DNA from: Argopecten irradians
Taxonomy: Eukaryota; Mollusca; Bivalvia; Pectinida; Pectinidae
Reading direction: 5' to 3'
Assembly: GCF_041381155.1 (NCBI RefSeq)
Contig: NC_091135.1
Span: 68,165,067 to 68,229,066, forward strand
Length of the DNA stretch: 64,000 nucleotides
Below, piece after piece: positions 1,738 through 27,291 of the stretch. How positions within the stretch are numbered: position 1 is the first letter of the stretch; the number at the start of each line of letters is the position of its first letter. The notes below the pieces were generated by a model. That model worked only from the letters and a program-made list of their open reading frames with translations. It was not told the DNA's origin and searched no databases. The translations under genes were made by a program, and so were the position numbers.

Positions 1738-2628
1738 TCATGTGATTTGATCGTACGGTGGTGGAGCTGTTGGTAAAAGAGGTAATGTCCCCAATTTTTC
1801 AAAATCAACGCGCCATTTTGAATCGTAGGCAGGTGGTCGAATGCCATCTTGGCACCGTATCGTATCTGTAGATGTCTTTGAGTTCTGGGGTTTATTGTCT
1901 GTTTCTAAACGGTTGAACGGGTTCATCAGAACAGGTTTCGGCCATTGCGAACAAACGGGCGTGCACACGTGTGAAGAGAAAAAGTTAAGAATTGCTTTTT
2001 CGCCAATGTCGTCTGGTCCATATTTCTTGACAATCGAGTTCATTGATGGTGACGTGAGTTTGAACTTTTGACCCTGTTTCGTCACTACACCCTTTAACCC
2101 CGTCACAATTTCATGTCCTTTAGATTCGTTGTAAACGAAATGAACAAATTCTTGTAGTTTACCACAACAGTTGCTATTGACGGTACCGTCACGCTCAATA
2201 AAGGTTTGGAAATTTTCTCCGAGATCCCGTTCAAAAACTACAACATCATCTTTACTGAGATGGCGCTTATAACGTCCGTCGCTCGAACGTATTTTACTCG
2301 AACATTTTGCAACCCGGTCCATTTCAGCTGAACGAATTTCTATGAAAGTTATTGCCTTCCCTCCGTATTTCTTCAAGTATTTCTCTGCTACGTTTGTGTT
2401 CTCAATGTAGCATAAACTTCGGAGACGGGCTGATTTCCGGTCATTCTCTGTTGTCTGTCTAAATGCCTTGATCAACTGATCACCAGCCCGATGTTCCGGT
2501 GCAATGCCCCGAAAAGCTACCAGTCGCTTGCCAGATGCAGTAGGTCTGAAGTCAAAGACTGCCCAAGATCCGGATTCCGAATTTAATGTTTCGTTTTGAA
2601 AAAGTATCGCTATTATTCGACTTCCCAT
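1738..2628 (-). CDS. Alpha-kinase domain protein 1 (probable pseudokinase) with PTAP/PPPY tail
   Basis: 296 aa with the alpha-kinase (MHCK/eEF2K) fold. Residues about 20-230 show the N-lobe block ASGKRLVAFRG (31-41), the likely ATP-binding Lys54, Glu133, His163 in the family's F-x-H-x-x-Y block, a glycine-rich segment near 204-210, and the zinc ligands H220-x-C222-x3-C226. The family catalytic motif D-L-Q-G reads G-L-K-G (177-180) and T-D-P reads T-S-P (192-194), so both family aspartates are absent. Phosphotransfer is therefore doubtful. The 70-residue tail is Pro-rich with PPAY (265-268) and PTAP overlapping PPPY (286-292), a pairing known to bind TSG101 and NEDD4-type WW domains. On the minus strand a splice acceptor (ttttttcag) ends at 2642, 13 nt before the ATG, so the 5' UTR is probably spliced and the coding region is one exon. 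The family call is firm; cellular role unknown. Confidence 0.85.
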   Translation of the reverse strand: MGSRIIAILFQNETLNSESGSWAVFDFRPTASGKRLVAFRGIAPEHRAGDQLIKAFRQTTENDRKSARLRSLCYIENTNVAEKYLKKYGGKAITFIEIRSAEMDRVAKCSSKIRSSDGRYKRHLSKDDVVVFERDLGENFQTFIERDGTVNSNCCGKLQEFVHFVYNESKGHEIVTGLKGVVTKQGQKFKLTSPSMNSIVKKYGPDDIGEKAILNFFSSHVCTPVCSQWPKPVLMNPFNRLETDNKPQNSKTSTDTIRCQDGIRPPAYDSKWRVDFEKLGTLPLLPTAPPPYDQIT

Positions 2629-2642
2629 AGTGATCCAATATC

Positions 2643-3603
2643 TGAAAAAAATAACAAACTTGCTTTACTCTTAAATAAAATGAAATTACAGAGACAAATT
2701 ATGGCATTCAGATTATCAAATATGTGTTTGTGTTGGAGTAACATTTATGGCTTATCTATTAAGTGGTTAAACTGCTATCCAGGAGCTGCTACGTCCAACT
2801 GTTCGTGGAAAGTACAAAAGACGTATGAATACATGTATGTATATTTCCTCCCTAAATAAAATTGTGCGAAATGATTATTTATAACGGGTTCAACCATATG
2901 GCGTTTATCTTAGTTTTTACAAATTAAACCCGCAATATGCTGATATATCGGTATAAGTTTTATGGTAATCGGTGATCGCACATCTCACCTATATATAATA
3001 ACGAATCAGATAGCTGCTTGTCATAGCAGACGTCAAGTAACTAGTCATTCTATATCTCTAGAAGATTATCTTTCTAACAACTGAAATATCTTTGCATGCA
3101 CTTAAATCCTGGTTTTAGTTATCGAAATGATAAAGTTGTAGGGACTATATTCTATTATATATACAAGATGAAGAATTCATATAATGAAGTACAAAAACTA
3201 AAGAAGAAACTGATTCTCATATCCTGTCGAAAAAATGTAAATGACGCGAAAATATGACGTCACAATTAAGAAATGAAATTAGGAATTAAATGTCTTATTT
3301 ATTTTTTGATTAGAACATTGCATATATATTTTATTTCAAACGAATTCTTAAATAATATCATCAGCATTAAATTAATCTTCTTTTTTATTTGACGGATGAA
3401 TGAAAATTGCAACAAATCTGCATTGATTCTAGCAAAATATACAATCGAAATTAAAAAACGAATTCTATGCTTCGCTAAAAGAATATCCATGATTAATTAT
3501 GACCGAACTTCCAAATATATGAAATGTCAAGAATTATTCATAATAGAAATATATATTATAGTATTGCTTAAAACATAAGTGTAACTACTATACACATCCA
3601 TAA
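2643..3603. other. Upstream of alpha-kinase gene 1, no gene seen
   Basis: AT-rich sequence, probably the 5' UTR intron of the gene to the left. It contains one full CRE-type TGACGTCA at 3255-3262. The short open frames look random. Confidence 0.35.
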
Positions 3604-3697
3604 TTCTTACCAAACTTACGTGGCAGCGTCTCAGGACAGGAGGACAACAATTCTTACCAAACTTACGTGGCAGCGTCTCAGGACAGGAGGACAACAA
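3604..3697. repeat. 47-bp tandem duplication carrying minus-strand splice-donor-like sites
   Basis: Two essentially identical 47-bp copies (3604-3650, 3651-3697). On the minus strand each contains CCAC followed by GTAAGT, a strong donor match (exon-side ends at 3620 and 3667). One of them could close a non-coding first exon of the alpha-kinase gene whose acceptor is at 2642, giving an intron of about 1 kb. The exon assignment is inference. Confidence 0.5.
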
Positions 3698-5222
3698 TGA
3701 ATGTTTACGTAACAAGTAATATTTATATACAGACAAATGAGTTCAAATCTGTTAAAAATCTTAGACTACAAATCCCCGCGTTATTTTGGTAGCCGTGAAA
3801 TTATGAATAAAATTACGATAACGTAATAAAGATGCTGGTCTGAGCTATATTCTATATTTAGATTTCTCTTACTTGTAAGTGTTATTGTCACAAGGTTTTT
3901 TATTCACTAGGAAGTGTTGGTAATCAATTTAACTTCGTGATCATATAAATAACTTCTCAGTAATACCCGGTATGATATAAAAGTGTGGTGGTTTACTTTC
4001 GTTTTCTTTGTGACTGATGTGTTTGTATTAATAAACACATATACACTACCACACACTTAACCATTGATCTATACGTGACACTTCTTTGTCAAAGTTTTTT
4101 TTTTGGTTTTCATTACCAGTACATATCTTTAATTTTAATGCAATGCTCGAAAGTAAGATTCCATTAAACAAAGATAAAATATCAACAAAACATAGATTTA
4201 CATTCTAAGAGAGTAAGTTTACGTAGGTTTATGCTTCATAAGATACTGGCTCATATCTCGATGAACATTCAAAGTACACTAGATGTATAGCCAAAAAATG
4301 CTTCAATTATTATGAGAAAATTGTACAATTTTAAAACGTGATTTGTGTCACATTTGTGTCACTGTATGTTTCCTCATGTAGCGACCGGATAAATTGTGCA
4401 TAATTTAGTATAGTCCATTGGTAAAATCATGTTCGTTAATGCAAGAAAAATTACTGCATCCCACGCCTTCTGTAGAACACATTACACCTTTATACGACAG
4501 TTACATATGTATCATATGATCAGGTATTTGTTACTACAAACCAGCTAATTGTCGCGGCAACTTAATCTCATGCTTGTATGCTTTATCTTTTCACGTCTAT
4601 TTAATTTCGCGATTTTGCTTCTGTAGTATATGTACTAAAAACAGCTATTTTCGTGGCGATCAATTTTCACAATTTCTGATTTTTTGCGCAATACGCAAAA
4701 TTTAACCGCGTACTAAAATAATTTGGTTGACAGTATCAACATCATTACGTATTAACTGAAAAGATGCTACTATAAATGTGCAAAATCACAACGTGTTAAC
4801 ATGGGAAAAAATCAAATATTGTTTTAGATAAAATGTTTGCTTAGAATATTAGAATATCAAACAATGACTAGGCAAATGATGCTTTCAATACTAATACCAC
4901 TATAATGGGTACCACCTCATGCGTATGACGAAAAAACTACTTGATGTAGATCTTATTTTATTCTTTATTATTAAAATGCATCATTTGGGTGGAAGTAATA
5001 AAATGACGAAGAAGAATTTTTTATTAATTAAAAAACCACGTCAGTTTCGAGATCCTAAAACGATGTGAGTGACGTACACTTAATCGTCGATAAGGCGCAT
5101 CTTCCGGTGATGGTGACGTCATTTTAACGCGTGCTGGGACTGATAGACGGTAAAGCGTACACAGCCATAATGTCTTCAGTAAATTCATGTCATGTTCATG
5201 TCAATTTCAGAGCAAAAACGGT
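3698..5222. other. Intergenic, with a nested hairpin and a CRE site
   Basis: No gene seen. A nested inverted repeat lies at about 3983-4061: outer arms aagtgtggtggt and actaccacacactt, inner arms atgtgttt and aaacacat. A TGACGTCA lies at 5114-5121. The rest is unremarkable AT-rich DNA. Confidence 0.4.
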
Positions 5223-5227
5223 AATTT

Positions 5228-5364
5228 AAGGTCAAAACCTTGACCTGAAATTGACCTGAAATTGGCCTGTATTTCACCTGAAGATTTATTCATTGACCTC
5301 AAGTTTTCTTCATGTGAAATTGACTTCAATTTCAGGTCAAGAATTGTTCAGGTCAAATTGACCT
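5228..5364. promoter_or_regulatory. Cluster of AGGTCA half-sites including a perfect inverted repeat with 3-bp spacer
   Basis: At least six AGGTCA/TGACCT half-sites fall within 137 bp. The last two form AGGTCA-aat-TGACCT at 5350-5364, the consensus layout of an estrogen-receptor-type element (IR3), inside a 21-bp near-palindrome. Three sites near 5239-5270 are spaced about 12 bp apart as direct repeats (the third reads TTGGCCT). The cluster lies 4 kb upstream of the riboflavin transporter ATG. It may be an enhancer or only a locally duplicated simple sequence. Confidence 0.35.
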
Positions 5365-5370
5365 GAAGCT

Positions 5371-6647
5371 GTAATATAGAGCCTACTAAGTGTTTATCTA
5401 CATGAAGATTTATAGAAGTCCCCCTTCGTTTTACATATACTATTGAAATATAACTAGGTCAAGAGGATAAATCATACATATAAGGTACATGTTTCGTCTG
5501 TCTATAAGTATCAGAGTTGCATAAATCTATACATAAATGTCTATATTTGGTATCAGCCCATTACATAACGGTGATTAATGCGTATTACTTCTTTGCAATG
5601 TTAATAGTGGCATTAAACGATACCCTAAGTTATTTAAATTCTTCAGATTTTTTTATTGCTCACAATATATTATTCAACATTTTGTCAATGAAATTGTTTC
5701 ATTTTTAATATAGTTTTTTCTATCCATGTGTAATGGCGAGGACACTATCTAACGTGTTTGATTCCATTAACTTTAAACCGATTATATCTATAATCTCTGT
5801 AGTTAGATCACATTGTGTCATAGAGTGTTACCGCCGTGTCGGATATATATCAATTTACATTTGTATTAAAAACAGCTGGTATTAGAGATATATGATATCG
5901 GAACTATTTAATGTTTGGTATGCTTCTAAACATTTTTGAACACTATTGTTTTCTGTTGCCTTTCATTTCCTGTCGTCATTTACATGATACGTATATATTC
6001 ACAATTTCAAGACCTCCATTATAAAACGAGGACCTTTAAAACGTTATTACTTACGCTTTAATAATCAATCTAATTATGTCTTGCATTTCATCTCTAATGA
6101 CAATGCGTTGTATGCATAGATATCAATAAGGACTTCCCGTGTGAGATGTTGAAGCTAAAATAAACATGAAGGGTCAGGGATGCTACCGACATAATTAAGG
6201 ACATCGTCGATAGACAACAAACAGAATCGTTCTCCGTCCCAATGAGGACTGTCCCAGGACACCACAGTCTATAAATAACAACACTTCACCAAGTCTTCCG
6301 TTTTGCTGCACCTATTTTATACACAAAGGGATTTTCCATTTAGAAGCTAAATAAAACCTCGAACAATTCCACTGAGTTCAGTCACCCATGTCACTGACAT
6401 GAGTGACTGTCACTTTTCAAAGTATAAGAGTCCTTTTAAAAGTATAAATGTATATATAAAGTTCATAATTTTATTTAGATTGTTATAAAATAATATAATT
6501 ACTGTGAACACATTGTCGAATTAGAGCTTTTAGTGATCCCAGAAATGGATAATGTAATATAATTATGTATATATTTTATTTTTATCGATGTCGCCATATA
6601 AAATACTATGATTTAAAATCACTACCAGGGAAAACAGAGAGTACTAT
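5371..6647. other. Intergenic, no gene seen
   Basis: AT-rich DNA without a credible open frame, RNA gene or recognisable repeat. A short inverted repeat around gtcactcatgtcagtgac occurs near 6380-6410. Confidence 0.35.
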
Positions 6648-6740
6648 CTATCTGCTTGTCTGTCTTTCTATTTGTCTCTATCTGCTTGTCTGTCTTTCTA
6701 TTTGTCTCTATCTGCTTGTCTGTCTTTATATTTGTCTCTA
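6648..6740. repeat. 30-bp tandem repeat, three copies
   Basis: A pyrimidine-rich 30-bp unit (starting tctgcttgtctgtctttcta) is repeated three times with one substitution. The 72-codon frame over it is a by-product of a period divisible by three. Confidence 0.85.
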
Positions 6741-8100
6741 TGGTACTTGGTATCATATGATTATCTCGGAGATAAAGTCATAGATGATATGATGTCACAT
6801 CATCTAATCGCTTTAATCTGAAATAGGGAACACTGAAAGAAACTCAACCTCAATTTATGTTCTTTGCAAAATATAAAAGTACATGTGTATATATATAAGT
6901 CCATAATTTAATTTTGGTTATTTGGTATTATATGACTATCTAAGTGATATGGTCAAACGCTTTTCCAACACGGAAGTGCAACGGAGTTCGTGGTATTCCT
7001 TAATGAAACATTAAAGAAATTCCAGATATGGAAGTGTCGCAAACGAAGCGGTAATACAACATGCGTAAAAGGGTAGTATTTCGGCATGTAAATAATTCTA
7101 GGAAACTCCGTATAATACTTAGAATTAAAAAAAAATACATCACTGTTCGAAATTTGTTTTATTTACTACTTGTTATTGACCATCAAATTATCCATAAATA
7201 TTTATTCACATATTTAGAAACAAGTAAGAATAATGCCGCATTAGCGATGGTATACCATACGTTGGAACATTTTCTACTAACGCTTAATAAGGATTACAAG
7301 TAATGTGTTCTCACTTGAAAGACTGCCAAACTACAGTTACATGTGGGTAAATAAGATACTCAATTTGGTCAGCTTAACGATGCGGGTAAAATAAATACTT
7401 GAGCAATAATTGTTTTTTACTTAGGTTTACATTACTTTTGGTGCATGCACATTTAGTCTTAAATTCATCAACGGGATCGTAGATTATAGTATATCTTGTC
7501 GCACACATTTATTTTTATATATATTCAATCTAAAAATAAATAAGAAGGCCATTTTTTAAAGTGTGGTGAAAGTGTGATTTTGTCATGACGCCAATTAAGG
7601 CTAGCTCTTTGTTATTTTAATAGATAAAATATATATGTCTATGTGTCCGCAATAAAATATATCTCTAATGCCCTATCACGGAACAGCATTTTAACAATCA
7701 CAGCATTTACAACATTGTTTTGAAAATTTTTAAAGCAATCTAAATATTTTGCATTCAGCATAATAATAATGAATACTACGAACAGACATGAATGATAACG
7801 TTCTAACTAATATTATCGAAAATAATTTTTATATTCCTATTGCTTGTTCAACTTAATGTACATGACCTTCAAAATTATTGCTATAATATTGTTCATGACG
7901 TCATCCATTATCGAATACCAGGTTGCCGTAATCAGTCAAGGTCATTATCAGAATTGTTAACAAATTGAATTCGAATTTATAGCACTCTGATGGTGTACTA
8001 TGTGTGATTTCTTTTGTATGGACCAATAAGTTACGTCTAATAGATCCGAAAACATACTTTGAGTTTTAAGATAATTCAATTGAACACTGAAATAATAGAT
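6741..8100. other. Intergenic, no gene seen
   Basis: AT-rich, with a TGACGTCA at 7896-7903. No coding or structured element identified. Confidence 0.35.
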
Positions 8101-8287
8101 TTTAATCATACGTTGTGAGCGGAGTCAATATTGATGATGACAGTATCGGTCACTGATAAACAGAGCAAACATAGAGTGTCACCGACCCAGACTAGTCCTA
8201 AGTCTAACTGACGCTTAGATAACTTCCGGTACATCAGTATATTGTACTGTATCACCCAGCCTTCATATGCTGCGACTGTCTCCCGAG
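8101..8287 (+). other. Candidate 5' UTR exon of the riboflavin transporter
   Basis: Sequence ending CTCCCGAG at 8287 is followed by GTAAGTAATG, a near-ideal splice donor. An acceptor (cttttccattacag) ends at 9304, 53 nt before the transporter ATG, so an intron of 1017 nt is plausible. The left end of the exon is not defined by the sequence. Inference only; transcript data would settle it. Confidence 0.35.
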
Positions 8288-8289
8288 GT

Positions 8290-9040
8290 AAGTAATGTAT
8301 ATTATATACATATATATAGCTAGGCAGCCCCACACAAATAATAATCAAACTGAGATCATTAGTTGCATTAATGTTTATTTTATTTAATGTTATGTACAAT
8401 AACTTATTAACATAACTAGTATTATGAGGTAACATATACTAGTGTACTTATACATGGTCCTTCTCATCATGTAATAAAGTTAGCTCACAATACATGAGTA
8501 AACTTTTTACGTAGTCTATATTGTAGAAAACCCAGAGTAAAACCAAATGGTGGACATAGCGTTATGTCGTGTGATGACAGGAACGTGCGAACGAAAAGAA
8601 AAAAAAGAAGGGATAGTAGAAAGAGTGAAGTTAGTGATAAATAAAGATTTTGTTGTGGATGAATCCGGTTGGCTTGTAGTCAATAATTTATCCGCCCTTT
8701 AATTAAATAAGGATTGTGTTAGATTAACCTTTTGTTTTGTCTGTCCACATTTATTCCCATTTATTCAGATTCTCACATTGATAAAGACAATAGTCAAAGT
8801 ACTCTCGCACACAGTTAGCTGTTCATTACTAAATATTATATCTCATGGAGGACATTAGTACGAACAAAGATGTCTCTCTTAATATTGTTTAGGGCATTTA
8901 GTTGTTTCCCGACAAACATGTCTCTAATGACAAATGAAAAATAAGAGCATAGAGACAAGAAAGCTGTAAGCTGTTCACAATTTGCGTTTCGTATAATAAT
9001 ATATATCTCAATAAATGTTCAAGTATATATCTTACCCATC
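8290..9040. other. Likely 5' UTR intron of the riboflavin transporter
   Basis: AT-rich sequence with a purine-rich patch near 8595-8630. No open frame of interest. Confidence 0.3.
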
Positions 9041-9218
9041 CTAACGTTTACAATCCCACTTTTTGTCGACAACAATAATTCACCCGTTTTTCCTTTGTCT
9101 ATAATCTACCTGGTGTTCATATCTCTCTCCTAACGTTTACAATCCCACTTTTTGTCGACAACAATAATTCACCCGTTTTTCCTTTGTCTATAATCTACCT
9201 GGTGTTCATATCTCTCTC
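9041..9218. repeat. 89-bp direct tandem duplication
   Basis: Two copies (9041-9129 and 9130-9218) that are identical as far as I can compare them, so this is a recent duplication. It lies about 140 bp upstream of the transporter ATG, within its putative 5' intron, and duplicates a pyrimidine-rich run. Confidence 0.9.
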
Positions 9219-9357
9219 CTAACAACTGACTGATGTATTTTATTAAGTATATCCTTTTTCGTAAAACATCGACAGGTAATTAGAAAACAACTTTTCCATT
9301 ACAGAGCTACATAGCTGAAAAGGAACTTTCTAAACAGTCACAGTATCAATCTTCTCC

Positions 9358-11549
9358 ATGGCTGAAGAGAAGGCCTGCGGTCGATACGGCGAGGTTAAAA
9401 TCTTTATATATGTCCTCGTCGTTATTTTTGGCATTGCATCATGGTTAGCTGTCAATGGATTATGGGTAGAACTACCTATTATGATTCCTCATTTACCCGA
9501 AGGCTGGAACCTACCATCATATCTAACTATAATTTGCCAACTAGCAAACATAGGACCTGTTTTTCTTACAGTTTGGTATGTGTGTTTCAAATCTCCAGTT
9601 CCCGAAAAGTCCATTGTATACCTCATTTTATGTATAGGAGCAGCCGTTTGCCTTCTTCTGGCATTCTTCTGGAAAAGTACGTCGTATATTGCGGATGCGA
9701 TGCACAGTACGGGTTTGCTAATATTGCAGTTCTTCCTTGCTACTGTCGACTGTACATCGTCTGTCTTGTTTCTTCCCTTCATGTCGCTGTTTAAACCCCA
9801 GTACATATCCGCTCTATATATTGGAGAAGGACTCAGCGGCCTCATACCGAGTCTTGTTGCTCTAGGACAAGGTGTTGGACAGATGATCTGTCAAAACATA
9901 TCGGTGGTAAACACAACTACAAATATATCTCATTATGATATACAGCCGCGGTATGAAGATCCTTCCTTCCCTGTGGAGCATTTCTTTTACTTCCTGTTTG
10001 CTATGGTCGTGATGAGTGCGCTAGCCTTCACTTTGCTGAATTATCTACCATACTGTAAAAGAGAACATCTAAGTATAAGTCAGGAAACAAAAGAAGACGA
10101 AACCTTTATCACTAGTTATAACTTAAACAGCGAATTTTCCCGTAACTACACTACCTTTCACGATACATTTCATAATCCATCTATTGGAGACAGTTCTTCA
10201 CAAGAACTGGTACCCAAAGACAAAAGAAAACGTGTAATTGATATATATTCTGAAAGTGTGAATCAGGCGCCCCCTTTAGAACCTGAGATTGGCCGAGGGA
10301 CGTATGTCTTCCTCCTACTTCTGGTAGGCTGGATAAACGCTTTAATTAACGGGATACTCCCTTCCATACAAACATACTCGTGTCTTCCATACGGAAACAA
10401 CGCTTACCACCTCGTAGCCACTCTATCCAGCATCATCAATCCTGTCGCCTGTTTGGGAGTATTCATGTTGCCAGCGTCTTCAAGCCTCGTTATAGGTTGT
10501 CTCGTGGTTCTAGGATCCTCCTTGGCAGCGTTCATCATGTTAGCAGCTGTTCAGAGTCCCACTCCTGTGTTGTATGACAATGAGACGGGACCTGGTGTAA
10601 TGGTAAGGATTTGTATTATATCTTTTATGTGTTCAGATCATATGAACAAAATATGTTATCATTTAAAACCTCTCCCTTGACCATTTACGAATCCTCACAC
10701 AGAGGAAGACTAAAAGCTCATCCCACCTTAAAGGCAGTCTAGACATTACTTGGGAGGGTACAAATTCTGATATATGTAATTTTATTCTTAAAGATGCTCC
10801 GCCGCCGACAGAGCATAAATAATATTAATCATTTGAACAATAATTGGTGTTTAATGGTGTATATATATGCCTAATTAACACAAACAATAACATAAAATAA
10901 CTTCTCTCTCCTTTGGTGCATGCGCAATCAGTACTTCATTCCATATAGGATATAGTGCCACGGATTTTTTTCGGGATGCAATTAATTGCTTTTCATATTT
11001 ATAACTTGAAGTAAAATTAGAAGCTCGACCTTTTCAATGGTGATACTTAAGTAAAGTAAGTAACTTTTGTAATTGAAGAAAAATACTAAATCGTCTGCTC
11101 CCTTTTTTGATCATGAAAAAATACCATTTGTCAGCTGTGGAGCATCTTTAAATGTGATATCCTATTTGATGATATTGAAACACTGAATAAAAACAAACAA
11201 TGATAACTTAATGCAAAATAATTTAATAAGCATTATGATATATTTTCACTAAGGAGACATTGTATTGTTCCAGTGACATCGATGTTGTTGTGTTTTTGTT
11301 TCCAGTCAATTTATGTTTTCTCTTATCACTCAATTTGTTTAACTTTTAAAGGTGGCAGCCTGGATTCTGTTGGTATTGCTTATGACTTTCTCAAAAGTGT
11401 CCATAGCAACGCTCTTCAGAAGAGAAGGTAGAAAAGCATTGTTTTGGTGCGGAGTGGTGACGCAGGTTGGATCAACAGTGGGTGCCATATTAACATATAT
11501 ACTTGTGAATGAGACTGACATATTCCAGAGCGCGCCAGAATGTCCTTGA
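9358..11549 (+). CDS. SLC52A3: Riboflavin transporter, SLC52A family (two coding exons)
   Basis: Join of 9358-10602 and 11352-11549, giving 480 aa (human SLC52A1-3 are about 445-470). The product moves vitamin B2 across the plasma membrane. Family signatures are plain: GLWVELP (34-40), LPEGWNLPSYL (46-56), QLANIGP (61-67), VDCTSSVLFLPFMS (130-143), GEGLSGLIPSLVALGQG (156-172), NGILPSIQTYSCLPYG (331-346) and AYHLVATLS (349-357). About eleven membrane segments are visible, nine in exon 1. A hydrophilic loop spans about 231-312, and sequons N180, N185 and N189 lie in the preceding loop. The ATG at 9358 fits the family's N-terminus. Exon 1 ends ATG/gtaagg and exon 2 starts after ttttaaag, phase 0. 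Without splicing, exon 1 would run on 25 non-homologous residues to a stop. SLC52A3-like is the usual label; exact orthology to member 1, 2 or 3 cannot be set here. Confidence 0.95.
10788..11151. mobile_element. MITE-like element with TTAA ends, in the transporter intron (family 1, copy 1)
   Basis: Terminal inverted repeats AGATGCTCC (10792-10800) and GGAGCATCT (11139-11147) are flanked by TTAA on both sides (10788-10791, 11148-11151), the target duplication typical of piggyBac-type elements. The interior is non-coding. It is homologous, in inverse orientation, to parts of 18143-19036 (for example the tracts around gagcttctaattttacttca and cctatatggaatg). Confidence 0.75.
11352..11549 (+). 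CDS. SLC52A3: Terminal coding exon of the riboflavin transporter
   Basis: Encodes residues 416-480 starting VAAWILLVLLMTFSKVS and ending SAPECP. It supplies the last two membrane helices. The block REGRKALFWCGVVTQVGS matches the conserved SLC52 segment before the final helix. A 749-nt intron (10603-11351) carrying a MITE-like element precedes it. Confidence 0.93.
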   Translation: MAAWILLVLLMTFSKVSIATLFRREGRKALFWCGVVTQVGSTVGAILTYILVNETDIFQSAPECP

Positions 11550-11565
11550 TATAGGTTCATTCGGA

Positions 11566-14321: not shown

Positions 14322-15254
14322 TTATCCACATTGCAGAGAACTAACTGCATCACTTCCGGTCATTGACTGTTGTCGGCAATGTTCCGGAAGAACAACAACA
14401 GAGTTATCTCCCAACCGAAATCGGTGACAGTGGTTTCCACAAACGAGCTGAATCACTGACTTGTATGACGGCGGTGGAGTTGCTGATCCTGCGTTCTGAT
14501 TGTTTAACATCATGTTTGTTATTCTCCCAAGGTCAAGAGCCGGTGGGGAAGAGAGTGGGTGTCTCCAGTTAGCCCCACAACGACTATTACAGGCATGTCC
14601 GAGAAAGAACTTGAAAACAGCTTCCTGGCCGCGGTCGTCCGGTCCGAGAGTACCGCCCTTCGTGTGAATTCTTGGAGCAGTTAACTGGAACTTGTCATTT
14701 TTCCAGGCGCCTTTTAATCCAGTGATTATCATCTTACCATGTGATTCATGGTAGCTGTAATGACAGAATGCCTCTAATATCTCAGGACATTCCTCTTCTA
14801 TGGTGCCATCGTCATTGATGAATGTTCGAAAACATCCATCAATATAATTTTCGAATATAGTCAATTCGTTTTTCCTTAACTTCCGGTGTTGTCCGTTTGA
14901 CATCTTGAACTGTTTATTGAATGTCGACACAGTTTCTATTGTACTCCGAAAACACTTGGGGAAGGTAATGCTTTTATAGTCTTCAGCGAACACCTCCCCA
15001 ATGGCCACACTCTTGATGTATGTTGATGCCCTCAGGTCCCACACACCGTTTGTTTTATCGTTGTTATTGCGATAAACTTTAACAGCTGCTTTTATTGGAT
15101 CTGCTCCGATTGGATTAACCAATGACATCAGACCTTTGAATATAACCATGGTTTCTCCGGAAGCTTTTGGTGAACAACTGAAGTTTGCAAACCGTTCATC
15201 TGTTGACGCTTTTGCGGAGTACGTCTCATTGTTCAGTGTGATAAAACTCGCCAT
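14322..15254 (-). CDS. Alpha-kinase domain protein 2 (probable pseudokinase) with PPSY tail
   Basis: 310 aa from the ATG at 15254. I prefer this start because a minus-strand splice acceptor (ttctacttggcag) ends at 15277, 22 nt upstream. The in-frame extension beyond it to 15353 looks intronic. Kinase-domain features: KASGETMVIFKG (30-41), Lys59 in AVKV, Glu135, His165 in CHYSYH, a glycine-rich segment near 201-209, and the zinc site H220-x-C222-x3-C226. As in gene 1, D-L-Q-G is G-L-K-G (179-182) and T-D-P is T-A-P (192-194), so both family aspartates are missing. The tail carries PPPSY (260-264), a PPxY WW ligand, then about 46 residues without a motif I recognise. It is most like gene 1 in the C-lobe. 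Function unknown; a scaffold or regulator is the likeliest role. Confidence 0.85.
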   Translation of the reverse strand: MASFITLNNETYSAKASTDERFANFSCSPKASGETMVIFKGLMSLVNPIGADPIKAAVKVYRNNNDKTNGVWDLRASTYIKSVAIGEVFAEDYKSITFPKCFRSTIETVSTFNKQFKMSNGQHRKLRKNELTIFENYIDGCFRTFINDDGTIEEECPEILEAFCHYSYHESHGKMIITGLKGAWKNDKFQLTAPRIHTKGGTLGPDDRGQEAVFKFFLGHACNSRCGANWRHPLSSPPALDLGRITNMMLNNQNAGSATPPPSYKSVIQLVCGNHCHRFRLGDNSVVVLPEHCRQQSMTGSDAVSSLQCG

Positions 15255-15276: not shown

Positions 15277-16314
15277 CTGCCAAGTAGAAATATATATAAA
15301 AGATAAGCGAATTCGTAAATAGTACATCCTAAATTGATATTATAATCAATCACGCTGGAGCATTAATTTCTTTTCATTGCCCCTTTGTAGGCAAAACCGT
15401 CCATAACATATTGACATGGCTGCTTTTCTCTCATAAGCTTTATATTCTAAAGCACTATCTGACCAAATTTGAAACTTTAACCCTTTATATCTCGTCCACA
15501 CTAACCCATCCATCTATCCTATACTCATCTCTATAGTCACTCACCTGGTACTATCACATTTAAGAGTTTTTATGAAATACGATATGTTCCCATGTCCTCT
15601 ATGTGGGCCTGTCAGGACACTGCCCTGACCAATTCTACCCCTATACCCGGTCAACACCCGCTTTATACCCAATGTAACGATCGTAACAACATTATGTCAT
15701 GGCTATAGAGGCGTGTTATATAAGTATTAAGTCGTTCAAACATTGCTGATGGTATTATAGGTAGGTATTGTAATCCATGTGTATGGTGGGGTATGGCGGG
15801 GTGTAGTACATATATTGTCAGGTAAAGATCGACACAGATGTTCAAGTCCACAAATATACACATTCATGACAGTAGGGGTTTCTAAATTCATGATAAATAT
15901 CCCATTCTCCTACTATAACACAAAAAGTACACACGTACTTAGAATTGGTATCGTATTTTGTCTTCTTTAAAGAGAAAAGTTGATTACTTTTTATTATCAT
16001 GTGCGTATTATTTAAATTAGGATACCATCGATTTTATATAAACATATATAATACAACTGAATTCTCTGTGTTAATGTGCGGGAATTTAGCTTACCTTAAA
16101 ATTAATAATTTAAAAAAAATCTTTTCTTCTTGCTTGGGTGTTTTAGTTTCGCTTGTGATTCACGTATAAACGACTCTCGTTTACTTAACAAGAGCTTATA
16201 TACTAGTGATAATTCTAAAAATAGCACATGGAAACCACCACCCGGTGTCTGTATATTTACTACAACAAACTCGAGTATTTCGAAATGCGCCTCGACACGT
16301 CAAAGCTTACTTAC
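15277..16314 (-). other. Probable 5' UTR intron of alpha-kinase gene 2
   Basis: Bounded on the minus strand by a GTAAGTAAG donor (16314 and below) and the acceptor ending at 15277. No open frame of interest inside. Confidence 0.35.
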
Positions 16315-17356: not shown

Positions 17357-17797
17357 GAGGATTCCATCAGCTTTTAAAATAATAAAGACACGTTTAATGT
17401 TTAACAGGATTCTAATGGGCGTGTATGAAAAATGTAAACTTCATGACGCAGTAGAGATTAGCATTTCGTGTTTGAGTAAATTGAAGTTACTGTTAGCCTT
17501 AAAAGTATATTATGCATGCTAAATATGTCACAAGATAAAAGTTTTCGTCAACTAATGTGATCACTGATGTTGTCAAGATCGTAAAGCTTATGAACAACAA
17601 ATATAAATATCTTAACCGTGTTGCTATCCTATACTGCGGTATGCTACTACATCATTACATTTCTACTAGTCGGGTAGACTGCTGCTATATCAATATATGG
17701 CTTTTTAAACACATTTGTGCTCCATGATTTGTAATTATCCATGGAAACATACACACTAAATAGCAACTAAGTGACAAAGTATTACTCTTTTTAAAGT

Positions 17798-18142: not shown

Positions 18143-19040
18143 AGATTTCTCTATCAAAAACAGGAGCAAGCGATTTAGTATTTTAAGTTACCCTCTTTAC
18201 ACACCACCATTGAAATGTTTGAGCTTCTAATTTACTTCAAGAAGAAAATATTAAAAATAATTAATTGCGTCCCTGAAAAATACGTGGCTCTGTGTCCTAT
18301 ATGGAATGTAGTACTGATTGCGCAAGCACCATATTGTTCAAATGATTCGGTAGCAGAAAACAGTAGATTTGGACAATCTATGAAAATAAGGCGCATGCCT
18401 TAGAAATATAGATATAGTCATTTAACTGTAAAAAATTACCTGTACAAAAGTATATATATAATTAATCAGCATAACTTTTGCAATTACAATTTGATATTTT
18501 GATACAGATTTGGCCATATTCTGCGCTTATTCATGCATGTGAATACAATAGTAACAACAAAAAAATACCTGAAAAGTTGTAAAATATCATGATTTTAGCC
18601 CAAAATTGCAGAAAATTGTACACAATTTTTTTCTTAAGACCTGTCTTAATTGACTACTTCTATCACAATGGCAAAATAAGCAAATTTATTTCATGGGTCG
18701 ATAGTGTGGATTTTTCAATATTTTTGCCTAAACCCGCGCCATGGATTTTCCTTCAAGTAAAGCTAGATCAAGCCGATCAAGACGCATTTCCGGAGGAGCC
18801 AAGAATTGTAATCTCTAACCCATTTTTGTTATGTTAACTTTTTGAAAAGAATTGAAACTTAAATCAAACCCTCCATATTGGATGTACCAATTTCAGAATA
18901 TATTTGATTTTTAATTTTTTTATGCATGGCTCAAAACAGGGGCTCCCCACTTAATAAAAATATAGACGGGGCCAGGCTGTTCTTCCCGGGTGTGCTACCT
19001 TAGTCTAATTTATTCTCTATCGGCGGTGGATCATCTTTAA
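18139..19040. mobile_element. MITE-like element (family 1, copy 2) with a nested insertion
   Basis: Right end ATCATCT followed by TTAA (19037-19040) and left end AGAT after TTAA (18139-18142) match family 1 copy 1 (10788-11151) in inverse orientation. Matching tracts cover about 18165-18345 and 19005-19036. The 650 bp between has no counterpart in copy 1 and looks like a second insertion. Its left TTAA is shared with the neighbouring family 2 element. Confidence 0.6.
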
Positions 19041-22000
19041 GTAACAGGAAAAGAAATGTTTCGGACAAAAATCTTTTTATAATGTAATATTCAGAAGTGT
19101 TTATTAAGCTTCTGAATCAAATTAAACATAAAGTGACATTAAACTGCAATAGTATACCAATTACAACCAAATAAAGTATTTAAAATACCCAGAATGACAG
19201 AAGAATCAGTTTAGTTGTGAACACAGTTATGTCCCTTAGTATAAATTTGCAATATCATGGTACGAAGTCCTTGTTTTAATTGCTGGAACATATCTACAAC
19301 ACCTGCGATAGAAGCCTAAAACTGAAACATAATGGGGTGAGGTCGCTATCTCGGACGGGAGGGTGACAACGGAAGGCTTATAAAGGGGACCTTAACACTA
19401 TTACACTAATCCGTTCGATGGTTTACTATTATCACTTAAGTATTTGCACAATATATTACCATTTATTGTATGATGATTCGACACGAGTAGCATTCAATGG
19501 TTCTTCCGCGTATCACAACCTTAATAAAATTACTGAGCCAGATATATCATCACAATGTAGGACCCCAAAAAACATTAAGGGCAGATCCCAGTCCGATACT
19601 ATGTTGTAAACTAAATCACTTTGATTAATATCAGTTCTAGAAAGAAACCTTTCTAATTTAAGTATTAAGAACAAAATGGGTCCTAATATACCTGTTACAA
19701 TAATAGCTATGTCCTTTTTACTTACCATCACTACACGATTATCTGACACGACTTTGAAAATCAAAATAGGATATGAGGACTACCTTGTACTGTATTATAA
19801 TCCGTAAAATACTACTACTATATATGTTGAAAAATCAAGACAGACGAAACACAAACTTAACAAATCTTAAAGTATTAAATATATCGATAATTCATTTACA
19901 TATTTAAATGAAGCGTAGATGGTCAGGTTTTTTTTTTTTTTTTTTTTTTTCTTTTGGGGCGGAGTTATGCCTGTATGAAAGATGAAAATTACAATGTCAA
20001 GGGTCAAGTATGAGAAAGAAATACTCTTACAGAACAGAGATAATTTAACCTCAGAGTCACAACATACGGTAAAACGACACTTCGTGATCCTCGGGTATCC
20101 TTCATACATAGATAGGGGAGAGTATTGAAAAAAATAAGTTATATTGTTAATGCATGCCTTTATTACAATGCATGTACTAAGTTAAATTTCAAAATCTTTC
20201 TGAAATATCAATTACAGCTAACTGTACTGGGGCGGTTGTGTTTGTTAAGCGATACTATTTTTGTGATTGTTGGTAAATAGCATGGAAGTGTTGAATTTAT
20301 CGATTATCATGTTTTAAATGTTATCTCTTAAAGACCATCTACCATTTCGAAACGACGTTTAATTTTTAAAACCTAAAACGAGATTGATAATTTTGTAAAT
20401 TTACAAAGGTTGTTAGCTTACATGTAATACTACACTTATCATCACTTTCTGAACAATTTATTTAAAATGAAATAAATGTTATATCCATAACGCGAGTCGT
20501 CTGATGTGTCCTGATGTCGACCTAATGACCGGACGTTAGTTGACTATCGCTACGCCAGACGGTAAAATGGCGAAATGAATCTTCACTGTTAACATGGATT
20601 ACACCGGAAATTTGCATTTGTTTGGTATCGTAACCTCATTATAGGCCATCGATATAAATTTTATTATATTATTATTATTTAAAAAAAATGTTTTGTTTCA
20701 GAAAGTTAGTGGGCCTTTAAAAAGATGTGCAGATTGCTTTAATACTTTACGATCTATATACACTTTAGTATTATTTGAACTTCATTAATCTGTTAATAAT
20801 TATATATCTAATTCCAATATTTAAACTTTACCAAATAAACCATTGAAGTACTAATATCGTTTAATTTCCGTTAATCTGCCTAACGGTTACAAGATAAACA
20901 GATATTTACAATAAACAATTTATCTTAACTACTTCATGATTATGTTCCATCTAACCGACAAAAACGAAACAACGGAATCACAAACCTTCAAAATCAAAGC
21001 GCTTTTGATAAAAAAACTTGGCAATAAACATTTGTTGAAAAGAGACTGAAGGAAGAAGCAAAGACAAAAATACGAAGAGGAACAAGGATAATTTTGCTTT
21101 CCGTTTGTGGACTAACATGGAACAGACGGATCGTCCATCTAGCGAATGGATTGGGCTTTTTACCTGTAATGAAGCAATTTCGACTAATGTTCAAAAAAAA
21201 TACTTCTCGAGCGATGACATGTTTCATATGGACATTGTGTATATATTTCAAATTACCTATTGGTTGTTGAGGTATTCTTTATATATCGCAGTTTTGAAAA
21301 AGTAACCAACTGTAGGCAATTAAGAGAAAAATGTGGATTGCTTAAATTGTAATTATGGGCAGAGTTTTTCTCAAACAATATTTTTCTGTGAAGTGATTAT
21401 TTGTATTAGCCTAGAGCGAAATAGATACATTTAATTTTAATTACAATTGACCGATAAGAAATATGGTGTTTACAATTGTACTAAGCGTTAGGATAATATA
21501 TAGTCAATTCTTTCACGTAAAGAAATCCTAGATTTAAGGGAATTGTGAAATTTTGTGATACTGTGGCAATATCTTACTTAAAACTTTGTTATCTATAACA
21601 GTAATTCTATCAGTGTTGCATTTTGTTTTCAAATAGATTAGGTTTGGTGTAGTGTAAACGTACATGCATAGTGACTGTATTTTTGGATCAGGTCAAGTTG
21701 CCAGGGGGGTATAAATAAAACAAATATATATAGATATTTACTCATAATGCAAACACGGGTTTTCCACTTTCATATTGTCAATAAAAACATATTCTATTGT
21801 GTATGCTTCGGCATGGATACAGGTACACGTATGTTTGCAAGCACGAGGTGAAGCTACGCACTGTCTGGCGATCTGCCAACTATTTGATAAGTGATTCCAG
21901 GAAGAAATGTAAAATACATGAGTATACAAGCATGTCACTTTCTTAGAAAAATGTCTGTACTTAGAAATAAATATGAATATTGCCTCAAAAAAACTCGTAT

Positions 22001-23340
22001 AGCTATTGTATGTGAACGAGGCTTTTTGGGTAGAAAATTCCGTTCTATACGGGATTGTAGCAGGTTGGATATCATTGTATCTGTATATCGTATATTTAAA
22101 CGAGTTCGTCATACATTGTAGCTACATACTGTGATTAAAAACCACGTCGCGCCGATCACTGCCACAAAATCTAAGCATCCGCGCTATACGCTAAATTTTA
22201 TAACATTTCAACAAAAATTTTATTTCAAACAAACAAGTTGAAATAGGATCGAACAACAGGCAGTGCCTATGTAAATTTTATAACACACGGATAGAATTCA
22301 GTTTCATATGTTACACTCATTTATGTTGGTAAGATCTTTAAAGTTGTTTTTCCATAGACCGAAACAATTGGACGTCAAGTCATACACAACTTTTTCGCGG
22401 GATATTTCAAAAGAATAATGCTTAAAAGTGTTTTATGGCAGTGTGCTTACCCTTTCCCAAAACTGCTGACCTCCATGTAATTTTAAAGTGTTTAAACGTA
22501 AAGCCTATATAGTGGAACACGCTTATAATGTCAAAAGGAAACACATCAAATATCTATATTTATAATTGTTGTGTCCTATAATACATATATTAAAACACTC
22601 TAAACATATTAAACTGTTTTGTGATGAGAGCTAAATTGTGACATGTGGCAAAGAACGGTGGCTACTTGTTTATACATAAACCTCTTAAGCAAATAAACTA
22701 TTTCCTGTACAATTTTACAAATAGTTGTTAAGTTAACGGTTGCATCTAAATCAATTCAGGTTTGAGATTTCAGGATAAACATGTATTATTTTACCTGGGA
22801 ACGTTGGCATGTGCAATGTAGAGAAATTCGATTGCAAATACATGGTATCTCCACATATGAAATTGACGGGGTTTTCTGTGTCAGTCGTTTATCAGACTCC
22901 TCGTGCACATGATGTGGCAGTATTTTAAGATCAGGTGAGTTACGATGGATTTATTTATATAATGATGTCAGGATTATGAAACAGAATACACAAAGAATAT
23001 CCAATATTATATTAAACAAAATGTGTTTGCTCAAAACATGACTCTGCGTGATAGATCGAATTATAATCTATGTAAATTGTCTGTTTATTTCATTAATCAA
23101 GCTTTTCAAAACAAGTATTAAATATCGAATATATGATTCTATTTCATGCTTGATACATTTTGACATTGATGAATTTTTATCTGTTTTGATAGACATGCAT
23201 TTACTTATACATAATCATACATGTATCTACATATATGTATATCATAAAATAGCATTATCACTACAGAACGTTATGATAATTTTATATTGACCACACGTCA
23301 AAAAAGTTGTCTTATTTTTTATATTATTCTTGCCAGGGAT
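19041..23340. other. Long intergenic stretch, no gene recognised
   Basis: Mostly AT-rich DNA. A run of 23 T lies at 19928-19950. The best open frame is on the minus strand (70 codons from an ATG at 19722 down to 19513), with one hydrophobic segment. I see no homology, and its ATG is directly followed by GTAAGT, so it may be splice-site-like rather than coding. Other frames look random. Confidence 0.35.
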
Positions 23341-23483
23341 CCATGGCTTATTTTCAAGTGCGGCCTATTTTCAAAACCGACCTATTTTCAAGATACATAT
23401 AGTTTGACTGTAAGAATTCCAAGGCTTACTTTCAAGAGCGGCTTATTTTGTATTCAGGCTTATTATCGAGATTTTAGGGTATA
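23341..23483. repeat. Dispersed module, copy 1 (source-type for the 32-bp array)
   Basis: About 143 bp rich in 'cttattttcaag' blocks, ending in attcaggcttattatcgaga followed by ttttagggta. Homologous to 23825-23931 plus the first unit of the following minisatellite. Confidence 0.65.
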
Positions 23484-23824
23484 CTATTAAAGAAGTGAGA
23501 GCTAATGGATCAGGTATTGACAAAAGTTAACTGAGATACATCTTTGACATATTATAGCTATAAAGCATTTGTTTGTGACTGTCACCGGCTATTTTGCTGC
23601 TTCGCTCACACAAAAACGGATTCAGATGAGATCTCAGATCTCGATTATAAGTCGCCATTTATATTCTTTTTATCCTGAAAGGCATGGTAGGTTTACTTAC
23701 AAGACCGCTTTACTTTCGAAACCTTTCAGTGTTCTTCAAATTAAAAAAAAAAGTAAAATAAAAAATTCCGTATCACACGTCACTTAACTTCAGCTTATTT
23801 AGGAGATAATGTCGATGCAAAGAA

Positions 23825-23931
23825 TCCAAGTCTTACTTTCAACTGTGGTCTATTTTCAAAGCCGGCATATTTTCAACATACATTTGAATGTAAGAAATGC
23901 AATGCTTACTCCCAAGACCGGATTTTGTTCA
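23825..23931. repeat. Dispersed module, copy 2, running into the 32-bp array
   Basis: Repeats the 'cttactttcaa', 'ctattttcaaa' and 'catattttcaa' blocks of 23341-23483 in the same order and orientation. The minisatellite begins exactly where copy 1 has its last 30 bp. Confidence 0.65.
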
Positions 23932-24474
23932 ATTCAGACTGATCACCGAGGTTTTACGGTATGATTCAGACTGATCACCGAGGTTTTACGGTATGATTCA
24001 GACTGATCACCGAGGTTTTACGGTATGATTCAGACTGATCACCGAGGTTTTACGGTATGATTCAGACTGATCACCGAGGTTTTACGGTATGATTCAGACT
24101 GATCACCGAGGTTTTACGGTATGATTCAGACTGATCACCGAGGTTTTACGGTATGATTCAGACTGATCACCGAGGTTTTACGGTATGATTCAGACTGATC
24201 ACCGAGGTTTTACGGTATGATTCAGACTGATCACCAGGTTTTACGGTATGATTCAGACTGATCACCGAGGTTTTACGGTATGATTCAGACTGATCACCGA
24301 GGTTTTACGGTATGATTCAGACTGATCACCGAGGTTTTACGGTATGATTCAGACTGATCACCGAGGTTTTACGGTATGATTCAGACTGATCACCGAGGTT
24401 TTACGGTATGATTCAGACTGATCACCGAGGTTTTACGGTATGATTCAGACTGATCACCGATGTTTTACGGTATG
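23932..24474. repeat. 32-bp minisatellite, 17 copies
   Basis: A unit starting attcagactgatcaccgagg is repeated head to tail with almost no variation: one 1-2 bp deletion near 24235 and one G-to-T in the last unit. Near identity implies recent expansion. Confidence 0.95.
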
Positions 24475-24514
24475 AACAAAGGCACGATAGTAAGTTGTCT
24501 TTAAGATGCTTGGC

Positions 24515-24524
24515 TTTTTTTTTT

Positions 24525-24555
<31 letters not shown>

Positions 24556-24558
24556 GGG
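24515..24558. repeat. Homopolymer junction, 20 T then 24 G
   Basis: Twenty T (24515-24534) pass directly into twenty-four G (24535-24558). It may be real, with G-quadruplex potential, or a sequencing or assembly error; run lengths are unreliable. Confidence 0.7.
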
Positions 24559-24559
24559 T

Positions 24560-25782
24560 TCGTGACATTAACACCACTTGTAGTTAAAGCTTGCTGTACA
24601 CTAGACAAACATTCCTCATAAAATTACGTATAAATGAGAAATTAATGTAGAACTATAATTGCACCGCCTGTTTAGTAAAAAATAACACTTCGAACATCTG
24701 GGAATCGTGCATCTTCTCATTTAGTTCTCAAAAGAAATGCAATCACTAGTATGCAGGCATGCAAGATCTGTATTGCTCTATATCCCGTCGTGGTATGTTG
24801 TACAGTTCGCGAAATAGTTTCAAAAGAATTTTGGAAATTTGGACGGTGAGCATAACGATGTCATAACGGATATTATTTGTTTCCCTTGGAGGTATGTGGG
24901 AGGCTAGGCATGTTCTGTGCTTCATGGTTAGTTTTATTTAACTCTTCGCATCCCATTCTTAATAGAAATGGATCTTTATGCAGGAGAGAGCACTTACTAT
25001 TCAGGAATCCATGGTTCTATTGCCGTTCCGACTGGTCGATCGTAGGTATGAAATAATAAAGACGCGTGTTTTATCAGCAAAGGTCTTTTATTAATACATT
25101 AGAATCAATAACATGTATATGAAAAACTTTTCAGCAGACAAATCATAAAATTAAATAGTCTTTGATTTTCAGCATACCAACCATTAAATAAAATGTCCAT
25201 TGTTCGGGTTTTTTTCAAAAGGAATATTACAGACGAATCGCTTACCCTAAAATAAGATTTCTTTTATTATTTCATTTCTCCAGTTTAATTTTGATTGTAA
25301 AAACCTTCTGTTTTAATATTTAAAGTAAGAACGATATTAATAATATAAATGAATACATCTGACATTCCATATAATTTATATCACATAGAAATATTGATCT
25401 AATTGTAGAATAAAAGAAAAATTCTATATATAATTTGTAGAATTCTTATCACATTAAATAGGGAATAATAAATATAGATAAACAAAAGTAGGTAAATGTG
25501 ATATATCACTAACAATACATAGTATACTACAGGTAGGGGTCACCTTTGATTTCCCTTTATAATCACAGCCAGGTGAGCCATCAGTCAGGTAATCCCAACT
25601 CTATCAACAGATACATGCACGTGTATCAATTCATACATATAAATCCCAACTGTATGTGACAGTCAGAAATAATTTAGGATTCATTTACGATATGTACAAG
25701 AAAACATCAGTTGATGAAATTGATATGAAGAATTGTGAAAATGTTTGGTCCTTTCTGTTACAAATTCTGCGGATCAAGAATC
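24560..25782. other. Intergenic, no gene seen
   Basis: AT-rich. A possible minus-strand polyadenylation signal (tttatt at 25263-25268) could belong to the downstream end of alpha-kinase gene 3. Confidence 0.3.
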
Positions 25783-26118
25783 TTATGATACAGAGAACAA
25801 ATAATATGAACATAATAATGTTTGTCTGGCTATGGTTAATCCGTTTACCTTTATAAATACATAGTACACGTCAGTTTGAAAACTACATTGACAGCCAGTG
25901 GTAAAACGTCTGAAGGGCCATAATGTAAATTTTACATAAGCTGATACATTGTTGCAAGTCCATGTTTTGGCAGACATTATTAATGCTTTCCATTTTGCTT
26001 TAACACTTTTGTACCTGTGTGAATGCATTACTAAATCCATTTGACTGGCAATGGAATCAAAACGGACATACTTTCTTCCACTGCCATCGAAGGCATTGCT
26101 GACAATCAACGATGCCAT
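25783..26118 (-). pseudogene. Possible fragment of a fourth alpha-kinase-like exon
   Basis: A 111-codon open frame starts MASLIVSNAFDGSGRKYVRF. Like the three kinase exons it sits just behind a splice acceptor (gcttggcttacag), and MAS-x-I and the block GSGRKYVRFDSIA recall the N-lobe blocks ASGKRLVAFRGIA (gene 1) and KASGETMVIFKGLM (gene 2). No zinc site, glycine-rich segment or PPxY tail follows. It may be a truncated, diverged paralogue or chance resemblance. Weak evidence. Confidence 0.22.
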
Positions 26119-26286
26119 TATACCAAAACTTGAGGCGGTAGACTGTAAGCCAAGCAATTTCGATGTTTGAACACATTCGAATGAACAAGAACTGATATGG
26201 ACATCAATTTGTTCTCATTTGTTTTAGCCAAGCTTTGTTATGCTGTAAGTTTGCGCACAAATTAACTGGACCCGCTATGTTAGTTA

Positions 26287-27291
26287 TCAATACGTTCTGA
26301 CATCAGGCGAGGAAAAATGGTTCAAAAGTCCAGCATTGTTTGACTTTCCATGACAAGATTTGCTTTGGAAATCATACGGAGGTGGAGCCATGGAATCAAT
26401 TCCCTCATACGCTGGAGGATGTATTTCCGCCGTTACTAAAAGACTGCGCTCGTTATAGGAAAATTCCGGACTGTCACATCCGGATCGTTCGCTTGGATAC
26501 TGGACAGGAAATGTGTCCGTAAATGAGTACGGCTTTTCACATGAAAGACTGGATGACGCGGATAGGTCAGTGGGAGAAAATTTCGGCAGCTCGCTACAGT
26601 AGGCGTTACACTGGTGGTGGGAGAAGAATGTAGATATCCCTCCCTCACCAGCGTCGGTGTTCCCGTACTGTCGCGACCGCGAGTGGACGCATGGTGTCGA
26701 CAGGGTGTAAGAGTTGCCGTTCTTGACGCCCTGTAGTCCAGATACCACCAATTCCTCGTTACTAGCGTGGTAAGTGTAGTGGCAGAACGCCTGTAGGATC
26801 GCCTCACAATTAGACGTAATACCACCATTTTTGTAAATAAATGATACAAAATCACCATCAAGTTTCTCTTCCATCAACACACATTCGCCTTCTGTCAGTA
26901 CTTTATCGTAACCCTTCAGAAAGCGGAAAATACCGTTAAACACCGAGACGGTATCCATCACGGCCGCCAGAGGGCGTTGAAATCGGATAGAAAACTGTGG
27001 AAACTTTTTCGAAAATCCTTCCGCAAATTCCTGTGCTTTAATCGCACCACTCACTTCCGCTTTGCCATCTTCCTCCGTTCCTTGTCCGTAATTTGTACAC
27101 TTTATCATAGCATGTGTTTGGCTCCAGTAATTGTTTGGAACGTACATCATTCCTTCAAAAACTGTTTTCCGACCGCCAACAGCAATTGGGTAGAATTCAA
27201 AGCTAGAAAACCACTCATGACCATCTTTACACTTGGTCAGAGAGGGAAGAGTGCAGTTGTCGGTGTGCTTTAGCTTTGATAGAATCCCCAT
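26287..27291 (-). CDS. Alpha-kinase domain protein 3 (probable pseudokinase) with two PPxY motifs
   Basis: 334 aa from the ATG at 27291, chosen because a splice acceptor (gaatattttcag) ends at 27293, one base before it. The extra seven residues to 27312 are encoded by that acceptor. Domain features: GGRKTVFEG (39-47), Lys64 in MIKC, Glu141-Glu142, His171 in CHYTYH, the glycine-rich segment G-N-T-D-A-G-E-G-G (210-218), and the zinc site H226-x-C228-x3-C232. D-L-Q-G reads G-L-Q-G (185-188) and T-D-P reads S-T-P (198-200). Of the three it best keeps the family C-lobe consensus, yet it also lacks both aspartates. A 100-residue Ser/Pro-rich tail carries PPAY (292-295) and PPPY (303-306). It probably acts as a WW-domain-binding adaptor; function unproven. 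Confidence 0.87.
   Translation of the reverse strand: MGILSKLKHTDNCTLPSLTKCKDGHEWFSSFEFYPIAVGGRKTVFEGMMYVPNNYWSQTHAMIKCTNYGQGTEEDGKAEVSGAIKAQEFAEGFSKKFPQFSIRFQRPLAAVMDTVSVFNGIFRFLKGYDKVLTEGECVLMEEKLDGDFVSFIYKNGGITSNCEAILQAFCHYTYHASNEELVVSGLQGVKNGNSYTLSTPCVHSRSRQYGNTDAGEGGISTFFSHHQCNAYCSELPKFSPTDLSASSSLSCEKPYSFTDTFPVQYPSERSGCDSPEFSYNERSLLVTAEIHPPAYEGIDSMAPPPYDFQSKSCHGKSNNAGLLNHFSSPDVRTY

Follow-up and report, generated by a model that had tools for sequence, protein, structure and literature searches.

The window analyzed here, a stretch of 64,000 nucleotides from the Argopecten irradians genome (contig NC_091135.1, positions 68,165,067 to 68,229,066, forward strand), contains three members of a tandem family of putative alpha-kinase-fold pseudokinases. 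All three lie on the reverse strand and each is a single intact open reading frame (ORF): K1 at window 1738..2628 (296 amino acids (aa), with its ATG at 2628), K3 at window 14322..15254 (310 aa), and K4 at window 26287..27291 (334 aa), with protein lengths counted from the chosen ATG. The original prediction had placed three alpha-kinase ORFs, each without the two family aspartates, at exactly these coordinates, and both losses were found again, with Gly at the position of D1765 and Ser, Ala, or Thr at that of D1775. The match of the three proteins to Pfam Alpha_kinase (PF02816), which had been proposed as a check, is far beyond chance, with E values of 5.1e-21 (76 bits) for K1, 5.7e-24 (85.7 bits) for K3, and 7e-30 (104.9 bits) for K4. 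The set is nevertheless not one of three but of five, as two further copies, K2 (C2:68156456-68157334) and K5 (C2:68131674-68132669), were found upstream on the same contig (C2), outside the window. All five copies are on one strand and span about 61 kb.

Across all 845.8 Mb of the genome, a search for the Alpha_kinase family gave seven matching places: the five single-ORF copies and, on a second contig (C5), a pair of exons belonging to a single gene. All ten candidates from the first look were scored, and counts from this search are lower bounds. The C5 gene was identified as eEF2K from its match (6.6e-37) to the human protein. In each of two protein searches of the genome, these five copies were recovered again, along with one C5 exon. 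Each of the five copies exceeds the Pfam gathering cutoff of 21.3 bits (76-105 bits), and the best match among solved structures is 4KUJ (E 5.5e-23), an Entamoeba kinase whose DIQG-TDP loop has the same length as the corresponding loop of K3-K5. A Rubella_Capsid match in the K3 ORF (E 0.0076, 16.5 bits) fell below its cutoff of 27 and was taken as chance.

Several hallmark residues of the alpha-kinase family are retained. Residue numbers are those of mouse TRPM7, with the zinc ligands, E1718, G1768, P1776, and G1797 numbered in the same scheme. The zinc site H...H-x-C-x3-C (H1751, H1808, C1810, and C1814) is intact in all five copies, as had been claimed for three, and the ATP-site lysine K1646 (alignment column K66 of P0001), which aligns with the MHCK-A lysine, is invariant. 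The adenine-contact glutamate E1718 (E145 of P0001) is likewise present in 5/5 copies. The glycine-rich segment, which had also been described as kept, is so only in part; G1797, its last glycine, is found in every copy, but the position of N1795 is occupied by Asp in all five. The stretch around the N-lobe phosphate-contact arginine R1622 was covered only by a sub-threshold match (-0.9 bits).

The catalytic positions were compared in a C-lobe alignment that set K1-K5 against the eEF2K of the same genome and four reference pieces (TRPM7, MHCK-A, 4KUJ, and human eEF2K), using the catalytic-site numbering of PMC4197629. The four reference pieces and the genome's own eEF2K keep all compared positions wherever letters exist, the human eEF2K piece having none at E1718, K1727, and N1731. 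The position of D1765 is Gly in all five copies, corresponding to Gly177 of K1 (codon GGG, window 2098..2100), Gly179 of K3 (GGA, window 14718..14720), and Gly185 of K4 (GGA, window 26737..26739), all on the reverse strand. The position of D1775 reads S, S, A, T, and I from K1 to K5, and within the window corresponds to Ser193 of K1 (TCA, window 2050..2052), Ala193 of K3 (GCT, window 14676..14678), and Thr199 of K4 (ACA, window 26695..26697), on the same strand. In the same order of copies, K1727 is replaced by T, T, T, S, and L, and N1731 by R, R, D, K, and E, the last (K5) being less certain because it rests on a gap. The position of Q1767 holds K, K, K, Q, and K, and that of T1774 holds T, T, T, S, and T. 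Thus, five positions (D1765, D1775, K1727, N1731, and N1795) are lost in every copy and a sixth (Q1767) in four of the five, where two losses had been claimed.

These positions are catalytic, metal, phosphate, or substrate sites, and the consequences of replacing them in TRPM7 are severe. In TRPM7 mutagenesis, K1727A, N1731V, D1765N/A, Q1767N/A, D1775A, and T1774S each left less than 1% activity and N1795A about 2% (PMC4197629), and D1765 is described as the key catalytic aspartate of that enzyme (PMC5318989). With the Asn residues lost together with the catalytic Asp and Lys and the metal Asp, and with the metal Gln missing from four copies as well, canonical phosphotransfer should not occur. 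The assignment of K1-K5 as pseudokinases is therefore supported at the level of sequence, and more strongly than the original prediction had it. Nucleotide binding is a separate matter, as the MHCK-A mutant D766A, equivalent to the loss of D1775, was crystallized with ATP (PMC9921739), so that an aspartate loss of this type alone does not block it.

One arrangement by which the proteins could still be enzymes is that the invariant Asp at the N1795 position has assumed the catalytic or metal-binding role, so that phosphotransfer is altered or a different ATP chemistry results. Other acids in the active site had been named as what would count against the pseudokinase assignment. The five-copy alignment has 30 invariant columns, and the only acids in them are E145, the adenine glutamate, and D219, at the N1795 position; hence D219 is the single candidate for a rebuilt active site, and no further invariant acid is available. 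The retention of the ATP-site lysine and the adenine glutamate in all copies fits such a site. The rebuilt site would, however, have to function without the catalytic Lys, the metal Asp, and (in four copies) the metal Gln, with D1775 varying freely, and mutation of N1795 or D1765 in TRPM7 itself abolishes nearly all activity (PMC4197629). We regard a surviving enzyme as distinctly unlikely.

The tails that follow the last zinc cysteine are 68-102 aa long in K1-K5 and provide the second line of evidence. Seven PPxY motifs occur in four of the five tails, with two in K1, two in K2, one in K3, two in K4, and none in K5. Those of the window are all on the reverse strand: in K1 a first PPxY (PPAY) at window 1825..1836 and a C-terminal PTAPPPY, in which PTAP and PPxY overlap, at window 1753..1773; in K3 a PPSY at window 14463..14474; and in K4 a PPAY at window 26407..26418 followed by a PPPY at window 26374..26385. 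Joint shuffles of the tails reached seven motifs in 0/20,000 cases and gave four tails with a motif in 0/20,000, the expectation being a mean of 0.005-0.076 per tail, or about 0.2 in total. K1 ends in PTAPPPYDQIT and K2 in PSAPPSYECVT, so that P(T/S)AP overlaps PPxY in both, and both genes retain two PPxY motifs despite a tail DNA identity of only 56-60% in the last windows. PPxY is reported to bind Nedd4-like ligases and PT/SAP to bind TSG101, and combined PT/SAP and PPxY motifs are described in viral budding proteins (PMC7995964). HECT-domain exons gave 108 matches in the genome, a count of the HECT domain as a whole and not of the NEDD4 type alone.

It could also be that function resides in the kinase domain alone, as a nucleotide sensor or protein scaffold of the kind proposed for ALPK3, with PPxY secondary and serving, for example, the turnover of the protein itself. 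K5 does without the motif, nearly all of the 30 invariant columns fall within the kinase domain, and a scaffold role has a precedent in ALPK3 (PMC9698156). The seven motifs in four tails are nonetheless beyond chance, and K1 and K2 both retain PPxY even though the tail around it diverges, which makes this explanation unlikely, although less so than a rebuilt active site.

Each copy is predicted to consist of a 5' untranslated region (UTR) intron and one coding exon. A YAG preceded by at least 8/12 pyrimidines ends 1-23 nt upstream of the ATG in all five copies; from consensus only, the predicted 3' splice acceptor AG lies at window 2642..2643 in K1 (13 nt before the ATG), 15277..15278 in K3 (22 nt), and 27293..27294 in K4 (1 nt), all on the reverse strand. 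An acceptor-like site of the same score is found within 30 nt of 19% of the 2,890 ATGs of the window, so that five out of five would arise by chance at about 2.5e-4 if the copies were independent of one another, an assumption that does not hold for K1 and K2. The interval from the predicted acceptor to the ATG contains an in-frame stop in K2 and K5; consequently, the chosen ATG is the start in these two copies if the acceptor is used. The kinase domain of eEF2K in the same genome is split over exons, and three kinase-domain introns are reported for ALPK2/3 and TRPM6/7 (PMC13143021). The single coding exon would be accounted for by a retrocopy that was subsequently duplicated in tandem. Met-Gly starts were found in 4/5 copies, but N-myristoylation is unsupported, as only K5 fits, by eye, the PROSITE pattern. 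Interferon-type elements were also considered and set aside: the window contains 6 copies of GAAANNGAAA against 4.75 expected, a count reached in 31/100 shuffles.

The single coding exon would also fit a viral or bacterial source in place of the animal alpha-kinases, and the P(T/S)APPxY tails resemble combined late-domain motifs (PMC7995964). Such an origin is hardly credible given the predicted 5' UTR intron in 5/5 copies, and no relative was found in viral_contigs, genome_contigs, PHROGs, or NCBIfam (the last two given three of the five copies), although these viral and prokaryotic scans used few peptide patterns and no positive control, so that the absence is weak.

In a small C-lobe tree, K1-K5 form one clade against five references with support of 99/98. 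The tree comprises 107 columns, a midpoint root, and only five reference rows with no close relatives, and within that limit the single clade supports loss of the aspartates before the cluster expanded, as the original prediction had proposed. Two observations qualify this proposal. The first is that K1 and K2, which are 66% identical in DNA overall, are 95.6% identical across 60 codons (K1 codons 136-195, window 2044..2223, reverse strand) and 58% identical outside this tract, a clustering matched in 0/10,000 codon shuffles. In the three 30-codon windows that begin at K1 codons 137, 152, and 167, the synonymous differences per site amount to 0.0, 0.055, and 0.195, compared with 0.6-1.1 in most other windows, a pattern that favors gene conversion over protein-level constraint. 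The tract is thus conversion-like, and because it covers both Asp positions, whose codons are identical in the two genes (GGG and TCA), K1 and K2 are not independent cases of loss. None of the other nine pairs has a 60-codon window above 55.6% identity; the mild clustering seen in K1-K3, K1-K5, and K3-K4 (48, 44, and 21 of 2,000 shuffles, respectively) is in line with a domain whose core is conserved. The second observation is that the codons at D1775, from K1 to K5, are TCA, TCA, GCT, ACA, and ATT, encoding four different residues. This site looks to be drifting, released rather than fixed, whereas the Gly at D1765 is held.

Selection on the fold, which had also been suggested, is borne out only in part. 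The ORFs are uninterrupted in all five copies (293-334 codons), and between K1 and K2 the nonsynonymous rate (dN, 0.30) is below the synonymous rate (dS, 1.69). In the other nine pairs, however, dS is infinite (eight pairs) or 3.3 (K1-K4), that is, saturated, and because dN lies below an unsaturated dS for K1-K2 alone, the support for purifying selection is weak. Together with high dN values (0.3-1.05) and a D1775 site free to vary, this saturation leaves room for relaxed constraint, and the copies could in principle be decaying duplicates without function. Decay is very improbable in view of the five intact ORFs with their zinc ligands kept, and of the same predicted gene structure in each copy. 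In addition, a profile search of 173.9 kb around the cluster (translated segments of at least 25 aa) found only the five copies at E <1 and no decayed extras, the two further segments that it returned being at chance level (E 2.5 and 4.5).

K1-K5 share with the active TRPM7 kinase, Dictyostelium MHCK-A, eEF2K, and the 4KUJ kinase the Pfam family, zinc site, ATP-site lysine, and adenine glutamate, and differ from them in the replacement of the positions required for activity. In the arrangement of a folded, here putative, binding domain followed by a PPxY tail, they resemble the alpha-arrestins, which are PPxY adaptors of NEDD4-type ligases; the overlap with P(T/S)AP is found in K1 and K2. The folded domain of K1-K5 is, however, an alpha-kinase rather than an arrestin.

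Within the alpha-kinase family the closest comparison is ALPK3, a pseudokinase of vertebrate muscle (PMC9698156), which also combines the alpha-kinase fold and lost active-site positions with a non-enzymatic role, the latter only presumed for K1-K5. The residues reported as lost in ALPK3 are G1725, K1729, Q1769, and N1797 (PMC9698156), which would be G1723, K1727, Q1767, and N1795 of mouse TRPM7 if the numbering is that of human TRPM7 (an offset of +2). K1727 and N1795 are lost in all five of the present copies, Q1767 in four, and G1723 in two. ALPK3 retains its predicted catalytic aspartate D1774 and also D1784, has 1907 aa with three domains as compared with 293-334 aa for K1-K5, and has no PPxY tail in the available part of its description (PMC9698156). 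The loss of both aspartates sets the K1-K5 family apart from ALPK3. A more distant parallel is the NUDT9H domain of human TRPM2, an enzyme fold that has lost catalysis and serves as a ligand-binding domain (PMC5671594); K1-K5 likewise have an enzyme fold with predicted loss of catalysis, although fold and ligand are unrelated. A literature search of titles and abstracts found no account of the K1-K5 family, which is not proof of absence, and a phrase match in PMC8917759 concerned a different kinase name.

Other features lie between and around the copies. A single-ORF gene for an SLC52 riboflavin transporter (window 9334-10680, forward strand, E 2.1e-129) is located between K1 and K3, on the opposite strand, and a 32-bp tandem repeat (17 copies, 99% match, window 23932-24475) lies between K3 and K4. 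A mariner-type transposase-like frame, identified by eye, is found between K5 and K2 at C2:68142151-68142726 (segment L029), and retrotransposon-like frames, with reverse transcriptase and integrase judged by eye, are located upstream of the cluster at C2:68113955-68117454 (L026 and L027). A 39-bp minisatellite (117.5 copies in the window, 97% match, window 59419-64000) runs on into segment L032 and stays open in frame, which gives it the look of ORFs about 300 aa long. Two repetitive stretches at window 51683-52302 and 55997-56329, the first open on both strands, have related translations (CRVVDLS, TTRQVD) and are probably copies of one repeat.

Collectively, these data lead us to favor, with moderate confidence, a tandem family of alpha-kinase-fold pseudokinases, most with a PPxY tail, that would act as adaptors for WW-domain ubiquitin ligases, the adaptor mechanism being read from the motifs; K1-K5 are probably former enzymes that have taken on an adaptor role. 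The kinase domain would be kept as a binding module, perhaps still for nucleotide or for a partner, and the PPxY tails of four copies would serve to attract proteins with WW domains, in the main NEDD4-type ubiquitin ligases. The overlapping P(T/S)AP of K1 and K2 could additionally recruit TSG101/ESCRT-I, such that the protein would connect the ligand of a dead kinase domain to ubiquitination and membrane sorting. The PPxY tails, which are absent from the original prediction, give its idea of a scaffold a concrete form. Several points weigh against this adaptor reading. PPxY and PTAP are short and a shuffle test is no proof of binding; K5 lacks PPxY, leaving part of the set uncovered; and the invariant Asp at N1795 could join in chemistry. 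The AlphaFold models built from alignments of the three window proteins were unusable (mean predicted local distance difference test scores of 32.3 and 31.4), and the saturated dS of nine pairs adds to these points. More tentatively still, K1-K5 may represent a class of zinc-braced alpha-kinase-fold adaptor that lacks the two active-site aspartates and links a bound ligand, or the nucleotide state, to NEDD4-type ligases and ESCRT-I via a P(T/S)APPxY tail, with its C-lobe homogenized between neighbors by gene conversion.

A clustered family that has given up nearly the whole catalytic set while retaining the fold shows how far the alpha-kinase fold can reach without catalysis. At about 300 aa, its members are small proteins suited to asking what a dead alpha-kinase binds, and their PPxY tails offer a directly testable answer to that question.

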